Shown here piece after piece: positions 6,603 to 50,849 of a DNA stretch of 64,000 nt. The notes below the pieces were generated by a model. It saw nothing but the letters and a program-made list of their open reading frames with translations, made no database searches and had not been told where the DNA came from. Each line of letters starts with the position of its first letter. Positions within the stretch are counted from its first letter, which is position 1. The DNA comes from Prolixibacteraceae bacterium (GTDB taxonomy: Bacteria > Bacteroidota > Bacteroidia > Bacteroidales > Prolixibacteraceae), in the NCBI GenBank assembly GCA_019856515.1, contig CP082230.1, positions 3,038,001 to 3,102,000 of the forward strand, written 5' to 3'. Both the position numbers and the translations under genes were made by a program.

Positions 6603-6609
6603 AAATAAG

Positions 6610-6682
<73 letters not shown>

Positions 6683-6738
6683 ATATATTATTTGCTACTC
6701 TGAAGTGCTCCGACCTTGAACATCTTCATTTCTCTAAG

Positions 6739-6811
<73 letters not shown>

Positions 6812-6867
6812 ATATATTGTTTGCTACTCTGAAGTGCTCCGACTTTGAACATCTTCATTTCTCTAAG

Positions 6868-6940
<73 letters not shown>

Positions 6941-6996
6941 ATATATTGTTTGCTACTTTGAAGTGCTCCGACGTTGAACATCTTCATTTCTCTAAG

Positions 6997-7069
<73 letters not shown>

Positions 7070-7081
7070 ATATTGCGGTTG

Positions 7082-19450: not shown

Positions 19451-19583
19451 GGTACCTCCTCCTACCTTTGTCCATGGTTCAGCCATGGTTCGTCCATGGT
19501 TTGTCCATCGATTTCGGGGGTCTCGATGGCTGAATCATGGCTATACCATGGACGAATCTTGGACAAAGGTGGGAGATGGTACG
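19451..19583. repeat. 11-bp-phased inverted repeat, element 1
   Basis: Two 61-base arms (19451-19511 and 19523-19583) around an 11-base loop, complementary at about 45 of 61 positions. Each arm is built from degenerate 11-base units: on the left TACCTTTGTCC, ATGGTTCAGCC, ATGGTTCGTCC, ATGGTTTGTCC; on the right GGCTGAATCAT, GGCTATACCAT, GGACGAATCTT, GGACAAAGGTG. An 80-codon frame starting at 19445 crosses it but has no family resemblance and is dismissed. Confidence 0.85.
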
Positions 19584-50641: not shown

Positions 50642-50849
50642 CTACTTCATAGGACTCTCCTCCGTGGCTCCTTCGACTCTCCTTCGACTATTGCTCATAT
50701 ATTGTTCACATATTAGTCACATATTCACCACACCTCCTTCACATATTTGTGAAGAAAGCATCACCAATATATCAACGATATATATCTACTATGTGAGCAA
50801 TAGTCGAAGGAGAGTCGAAGGAGCCACGGAGGAGAGTACTATGAAGTAG
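50642..50849. repeat. 11-bp-phased inverted repeat, element 2
   Basis: Two 59-base arms (50642-50700 and 50791-50849) complementary at 57 of 59 positions around a 90-base loop. From 50668 to the end the whole element reads as consecutive 11-base words: CTCCTTCGACT twice, ATTGCTCATAT, ATTGTTCACAT, ATTAGTCACAT, ATTCACCACAC, CTCCTTCACAT, ATTTGTGAAGA, and on the right ATAGTCGAAGG, AGAGTCGAAGG, AGCCACGGAGG. The 61-codon frame crossing it is not a gene. Confidence 0.9.

Follow-up and report, generated by a model that had tools for sequence, protein, structure and literature searches.

What is the function of a long inverted repeat assembled from words of 11 bases and set between the genes of a bacterial chromosome? 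The repeat that raises this question, hereafter “type A”, lies in a window of 64 kb (the whole stretch of DNA that was analyzed), which occupies positions 3,038,001-3,102,000 of the single 5,187,288-base contig of what we call the own genome. In this report, we establish what the element is made of, where its relatives occur, how they change, and how they are distributed along the chromosome, and we then weigh the explanations that these properties allow.

Two 11-periodic palindromes in one window

The inverted repeat is real. Recounting upheld the first-pass annotation, which had described arms of 59 bases matched at 57 positions around a 90-base loop: segments 50642-50700 and 50791-50849 pair at 57/59 positions, or at 58/60 if one base is added per arm, and the loop measures 88-90 bases. 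The 11-base words named there are also present, and 11 is the top lag, with a self-identity of 0.54, compared to 0.50 at lag 22, 0.42 at lag 33 and 0.14-0.38 at the remaining lags from 3 to 44. The palindrome score of 55 and the lag-11 count of 53 exceed the best values among 20 Markov copies of the window (13.5 and 41, respectively). As RNA, the element is predicted to fold with -125.9 kcal/mol (z -17.55; 0/200 shuffles were equally good), and the fold includes a 7-bp stem within the centre (Table 1). The genes flanking this copy are one for a TonB C-terminal protein and an ORF without a Pfam match.

Two inverted repeats in the window reach a palindrome score of 20, namely type A and an element at 19452-19582 (“type B”), and lag 11 is the top lag in both. 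The two had been suspected of forming a single class of intergenic elements, and we agree: both are 11-periodic palindromes with many copies. Elsewhere in the window, four tRNA genes lie in tandem units of 129 bases with 98% matches. Four tRNAs were the only matches at gathering score when Rfam models were compared with the 64-kb window, and no structured-RNA model matched the type A element.

Table 1. Features of the window (positions count from its first base)
Feature	Position	Strand	Description
tRNA genes, tandem units	6606..7073	minus	four genes
Type B left arm	19452..19511	.	words TTTGTCCATGG and relatives, in 11-base steps
Type B centre	19512..19522	.	11 bases
Type B right arm	19523..19582	.	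pairs with left arm
Type A left arm	50642..50701	.	11-base words: outer CTCCTTCGACT type, then inner ATTGNTCAYAT type
Type A centre between arms	50702..50789	.	inner words run on into centre
Predicted stem in type A centre	50737..50754		7 bp
Type A right arm	50790..50849	.	words ATAGTCGAAGG, AGAGTCGAAGG

Copies in the genome and in its relatives

Type A occupies at least 16 distinct places in the own genome, the window copy included (31 match rows), and type B at least 38 (74 match rows). These counts are lower bounds because 40 of 49 first-look candidates were scored in each search. A search of this genome and of relatives, which the first-pass annotation had proposed, yielded many more copies in both. 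Our all-lag scan took in 40% of the own genome, an unbroken 2,061,700 bases, at lags 5-24 in segments of 77 bases, with thresholds that, here as in the other analyses, were set after the data had been seen. At 43 or more matches, lag 11 gave 46 peaks and its harmonic 22 gave 29, and every other lag gave 0-5; with the threshold raised to 50, the respective numbers were 26, 19, and 0-1. Lag 11 alone, its harmonic apart, stands out in the 2.06 Mb scanned.

The scan also found two weaker types, C and D. Some copies of type C sit in a dispersed repeat of about 850 bp that carries two 11-periodic arrays; the repeat at 2271244-2272096 of the own genome (in L126) and its copies near 2507505 and 3272249 are 86-87% alike end to end, and their ends are fairly constant. 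Type D has GTTACCCTT-like words. Short palindromes resembling it, with GTTACCCTT words near an 11-base step, lie at 2314588-2314712, 2375028-2375169 and 3852091-3852261, and the last of these adjoins a gene whose counterpart in the related genome G003 has a neighbouring type B element. Within the class, the arms span up to 117 bp and the loops range from 0 to 88 bases.

Relatives were represented by one genome per species. Judged by a neighbouring trpE-like protein, the closest named relative is a metagenome-assembled genome of the Prolixibacteraceae (84%). Type A was detected in the own genome alone (1/41 genomes), and type B is present in 4/4 genomes compared within the genus, with at least 47 places in G003 and at least 10 in G001 (which is 77% complete). 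A genome of another genus, Mariniphaga (G058; its locus is 100% identical to the LH_M28 record over 156 bases), holds an analogue built on a different word, AACTCAATGTA, in at least 40 places; no copy with this word was found in G011, of the same genus as G058. In a sample of 120 genomes of the family, taken from a larger set, the AACTCAATGTA word matched three (G058 and, weakly and once each, two others), and type B matched six (the four of the genus and, again with one weak match each, two others). No lag-11 excess was present in 379 kb (20 stretches) from seven other family genomes. Given so few genomes with matches and no excess elsewhere, the class is patchy. Two side observations concern other taxa. 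An intergenic stretch of Bizionia echini (Flavobacteriaceae; L081:2821-2957) holds a direct 5 x 11 array of GTGGTTATAGT-type words and no palindrome, and G042, from a third genus, has short 11-periodic stretches near threshold with ATAGTTATCG- or CATGG-like words (L315:14164-14265 and L313:10070-10177).

Patterns of change among copies

The 334 pairs of copies that were compared differ by 76 indels of 1 base, 29 of 2 and 26 of 11, and no other length has more than 10 cases. Eleven is therefore the commonest length above 2, which accords with the proposal that the class evolves in 11-base steps. Near-identical copies at unrelated sites share their centres, with core identities of 96% and 94.7%, and diverge increasingly outward with no sharp ends (five distinct pairs). 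Sharp terminal inverted repeats with a target duplication, the mark of a MITE or transposon end pair, were not seen in these five pairs.

In a comparison of the flanks with orthologous loci, also recommended at the outset, two orthologous gene pairs (L243 and L242) have an element in G003 and none in the own genome. At L236 and L235, the element next to the gene is of type B in G003, and the same gene has type A or D beside it in the own genome. To judge from these alignments, sites are gained and lost between species. Conservation of position is weak: 16/39 flank orthologs, which are not independent, have an own element no more than 6 kb away, where 26% were expected to.

In type A, 24/49 arm pairs have changed on both sides, and the covariation of 0.219 exceeds that of shuffled arms (0.129; 0/500 shuffles reach it). 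A rung test, in which the centre was fixed from the inner arms and the pairing of outer rungs was scored in register or one word off, gave 0.80 for type A (14 elements) and 0.60 one word off either way. The values were 0.72 vs. 0.64 and 0.56 for own elements of mixed type (30), 0.73 vs. 0.66 and 0.55 for G058 (29 elements), and 0.74 vs. 0.76 and 0.57 for G003 (9 elements), i.e., without a rung preference in the last. The idea that arm complementarity is kept is thus upheld for type A by its paired changes, but the nine G003 elements pair in no rung-specific manner. Further, arms of at least 40 bp occur in only 6/30 elements of G002, yet the 11-base phase persists there, and 24/30 elements of G058 have no loop. 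Rung-by-rung complementarity with paired changes, as in type A, is not needed by a linear array. Hairpin-templated correction can give mirror-perfect arms; near-perfect arms may persist by this means and not by any need for a hairpin.

A shared 11-base lattice

Eight non-redundant arms (of 62 from 39 elements) could be fitted in phase to a single pattern, n-T-Y-C-R-n-n-n-n-T-n. The lattice score is 28.8, a value inflated by the common descent of some arms and by the inclusion of two arms from one element; 60 column-permuted sets averaged 15.2 and reached 18.3 at most. The Y-C-R step returns once per turn. The same step every 11 bases fits 30/30 G058 loci at five repeats, although any 11-base word, if repeated, could fairly easily give such a fit by chance. 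Pyrimidine-purine steps, with which the C-R of the lattice may be compared, are called extremely flexible in a gyrase preprint (PMC12393610).

The phase of Y-C-R to the left of the centre was compared with that to the right, and the difference was expressed modulo 11. It is 10 or 0 in type A (16/16) and 10 in type B (17/17 clear calls, of 19 elements). In the remaining own elements it is 9 or 0 (7 clear calls, of 13 scored of 16), with values of 1, 4, 4, 6, 7 and 9 in the six that gave no clear call. Among the relatives, clear calls gave 0 in G002 (17 elements, with 23 of 30 scored), 10 in G003 (21 of 30 elements) and in G058 (30/30), and 9-10 in G001 (5 of 6 elements); the sole G042 element gave no clear call. 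All clear calls therefore place the left-right phase between -2 and 0 modulo 11. The number of independent word families behind these calls is about four, for which we calculate a chance of about 0.05 that the values would agree to within three adjacent ones. The agreement suggests, short of proof, that a single helical lattice is read without a break across the centre of the duplex.

Spacing along the chromosome

A lag-score threshold of 44 leaves 39 own-genome elements, which are separated by a mean gap of 52.6 kb (CV 0.50; the shortest gap is 18.8 kb). Placing them at random in intergenic gaps 5000 times never gave an equally even set (0 and 2 of 5000 at two stricter cut-offs), and 1/38 gaps is shorter than 25 kb, where 15.1 were expected. 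A looser set of 47 elements, to which weak types C and D contribute, has 6/46 such gaps vs. 20.8 expected; the weak type C arrays ignore the distance, lying about 7, 14 and 16 kb from A elements. For types A and B in the whole genome, 54 places among the matches listed leave 0/54 gaps below 25 kb (12.2 expected; 0/10000 placements), and their CV of 0.74 was equalled in evenness by 105/10000 placements. Among the same matches, A-B pairs closer than 25 kb number 0 vs. 5.87 expected after random rotation (P=0.0019). Types A and B exclude each other.

In the own genome, evenness beyond this exclusion does not reach significance when the exclusion is taken as 20-27 kb (P 0.10-0.59); taken as 15 kb, it gives a P of 0.018. 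The single contig of G002, from the same genus, holds 38 copies among the matches listed, with a mean gap of 116 kb and a CV of 0.42 that 0/10000 uniform placements equalled; for these copies, 1/37 gaps is shorter than 25 kb (7.4 expected), and the arrangement is more even than a simple 24-kb exclusion predicts (P = 1e-4). The 25-kb minimum fails in G003 and G058, where 5/22 and 4/19 within-contig gaps, respectively, are shorter. An exclusion at a shorter distance remains, as gaps below 15 kb are missing from both: 0/22 in G003 vs. about 6-7 expected and 0/19 in G058 vs. about 5-7 expected, with contig extents assumed.

A regular grid of positions was rejected (best period 16 kb, P=0.61). A gap of about 46-52 kb may be preferred (13/38 in one 6-kb bin), with a P of 0.01-0.09 depending on the exclusion assumed. 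Similarity between copies does not fall significantly with chromosomal distance (type B, P=0.73, n=19; type A, P=0.16, n=11), and type A is weakly clustered on the chromosome (P=0.026). Over the scanned stretch, cumulative GC skew has its minimum near 3.24-3.28 Mb, the likely origin, which is surrounded by three inter-element gaps of more than 100 kb (region 3.09-3.47 Mb).

Placement relative to genes

For 49 elements with a lag score of at least 43 or a palindrome score of at least 18, placement was assessed with a simple ORF caller; 48 lie between ORFs of at least 90 codons. The neighbouring genes are tandem in 23 cases, divergent in 14 and convergent in 12 (253, 128 and 57, respectively, for background gaps of at least 250 bases). 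The elements are not tied to gene direction. Their orientation does not support an identity as intrinsic terminators, which would be expected downstream of genes and seldom in divergent gaps: the 14/49 between divergent genes are near the background share of 128/438. Nor do they have a common flanking gene family, as no Pfam family among the 25 of 130 listed occurs in more than 4 of 72 flanking proteins, a scan that omitted six ORFs split between sequence stretches.

Three 16S rRNA genes have a type B copy about 0.8 kb upstream, and a fourth, in tandem, has none directly upstream. The three copies share duplicated sequence and are therefore not independent. An ORF of 106 amino acids beside three elements was considered as a carried gene and set aside, for it looks low-complexity and lies within the segment shared upstream of the 16S rRNA genes.

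Discussion

We propose that these elements are chromosome-wide, helically phased sites that organize the chromosome by being wrapped on a candidate binding protein; we place the probability of this reading at roughly 0.45. A site would comprise about 130-300 bp, in which a weak recognition unit returns to the same face of the DNA with every helical turn (11 bp), and units to the left of the centre would mirror those to its right. The wrapping or coating protein would probably bind the whole array cooperatively. Such sites could act over tens of kilobases as anchors, as centres of loops or supercoil domains, or as segregation sites, and two of them would therefore rarely lie close together. Indels of 11 bases, the phase that continues across the centre and an exclusion of 15-25 kb together point to a DNA-wrapping or coating protein that acts on the surrounding chromosome. 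We infer that selection would bear on the spacing itself. None of the flanking genes or Y1 transposases that we looked at was identified as the source of the binding protein. Intrinsic curvature was rejected as an unusual feature, as the elements resemble other intergenic DNA in predicted curvature: 28.7 degrees/55 bp (32 elements) vs. 28.1 for 291 intergenic stretches and 24.2 for shuffled elements.

A related reading, which is possible but doubtful, is that a helical-lattice system, with one weak contact per 11-bp turn, mirrored, over 130-300 bp, defines the sites in place of any fixed sequence. On that account the words would drift freely, and the step, phase and minimum distance would be what is maintained from one end of the chromosome to the other.

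The main rival, which we think rather unlikely, treats the elements as selfish dispersed hairpins copied by an enzyme, with a spacing that reflects target immunity as in Mu or Tn7 and not a service to the cell. Copying of this kind would readily give cores that are 96% or 94.7% identical at unrelated sites, gene pairs such as L243 and L242 that lack the element in the own genome, and a patchy occurrence in the family, but it sits poorly with the outward fading of the copies, which show no sharp end or target duplication in five distinct pairs. The range of Mu immunity is similar to the 15-25 kb seen here (Mu cis-immunity is described in PMC7350765 as fading between 5 and 25 kb), yet A and B exclude each other despite their different inner words, and no gene family flanks the copies. 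The enzyme is a further difficulty. A RAYT/Y1 transposase is not supported as the driver, as PF01797 was not found in G003 (at least 47 copies) or in G001 (at least 10 places; 77% complete), although both have elements; the result for G003 by itself makes Y1 transposase an unlikely mover. PF01797 was likewise not found in G004; it occurs once each in G002 and G042, twice in the own genome, and 3-7 times in G058, G011, G009, G016, G023 and G005.

An improbable alternative is that the elements are otherwise neutral repeats, and that close copies have been purged since recombination between them deletes the intervening DNA. The long identical stretches common to copies would permit such recombination, and beyond about 25 kb the gaps of the own genome are as expected for elements placed at random. 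However, A-B pairs are also excluded, their inner words differing (some outer words are shared), the spacing in G002 is more even than an exclusion of 24 kb predicts (P=1e-4), and the 11-base step is left unexplained.

The least probable alternative is that the elements work as a long structured RNA or as a cruciform: the helix of A-form RNA likewise takes about 11 bp to complete a turn, and the fold energy, the covariation and the rung-specific pairing of type A speak for a paired structure, but only tRNAs match Rfam in the window, 24/30 elements of G058 lack a loop and 24/30 of G002 lack arms of 40 bp, placement relative to genes is inconsistent, RNA hardly explains the spacing, and both paralogous copies and fold-back repair can mimic covariation. 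Of the three functions that the first-pass annotation had offered, then, the protein-binding array is favoured, and RNA and cruciform have been weakened by the G002 arms and the G003 rungs.

If the wrapping-site reading is true, Bacteroidota gain visible candidates for nucleoid-organizing sites that are spaced, preserve phase and drift in sequence, and with them a case in which recognition of DNA by its helical phase, and not by its sequence, can be put to the test. Should the elements prove selfish, their exclusion distance would preserve in nature a trace of target immunity, in hairpins with no known transposase.

Comparison with known systems

Our searches of open-licence full-text papers, PMC12306157 on REP elements among them, turned up no description of these elements, and no matches were obtained in phages (type A query), plasmids (type B query) or viral contigs (one pattern each). 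Sites of the matS/MatP type are many and spread over the chromosome; they are short fixed motifs confined to one macrodomain, whereas here arrays of 130-300 bp extend over the whole chromosome. REP/BIME elements are, like those described here, dispersed intergenic palindromes in many copies. REPs are short and fixed in sequence; our elements have words that drift and arms that are long, and neither G003 nor G001 yielded a Y1 transposase.

ParR-parC centromeres resemble the elements in being arrays of short direct repeats, and R1 ParR needs at least two 11-bp repeats (PMC9426499). A plasmid has a single such centromere, near parMR; here there are dozens of mirrored arrays per chromosome, with no common flanking gene. 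Genes for parM or parR do not lie next to the elements as a rule, as no listed family has more than 4 members among the 72 flanking proteins (25/130 families listed).

The other closely comparable layout is that of strong gyrase sites, such as the Mu SGS and BIME-2. According to PMC6379681, these are long, degenerate duplex sites, with a centre and phased arms as here, that are bound by wrapping and in some cases lie within dispersed intergenic palindromes; the E. coli motif spans 130 bp, and its phased flanks are proposed to be recognized by the C-terminal domains of gyrase. The gyrase sites have a 10-bp G/C wave and flanks of 47 bp (PMC6379681), in contrast to the 11-bp word lattice and arms of up to 117 bp found here. 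The 11-bp G/C amplitude is 5.27 in G058, 2.69 in type B (with G/C peaks about every half turn, by eye), 0.94 in type A and 0.98 in G003. The weak wave in the latter two and the ordinary curvature may tell against a gyrase site. Dozens of long palindromes in 11-base steps, set tens of kilobases apart, suggest a collection of chromosome-organizing sites that is apparently undescribed.
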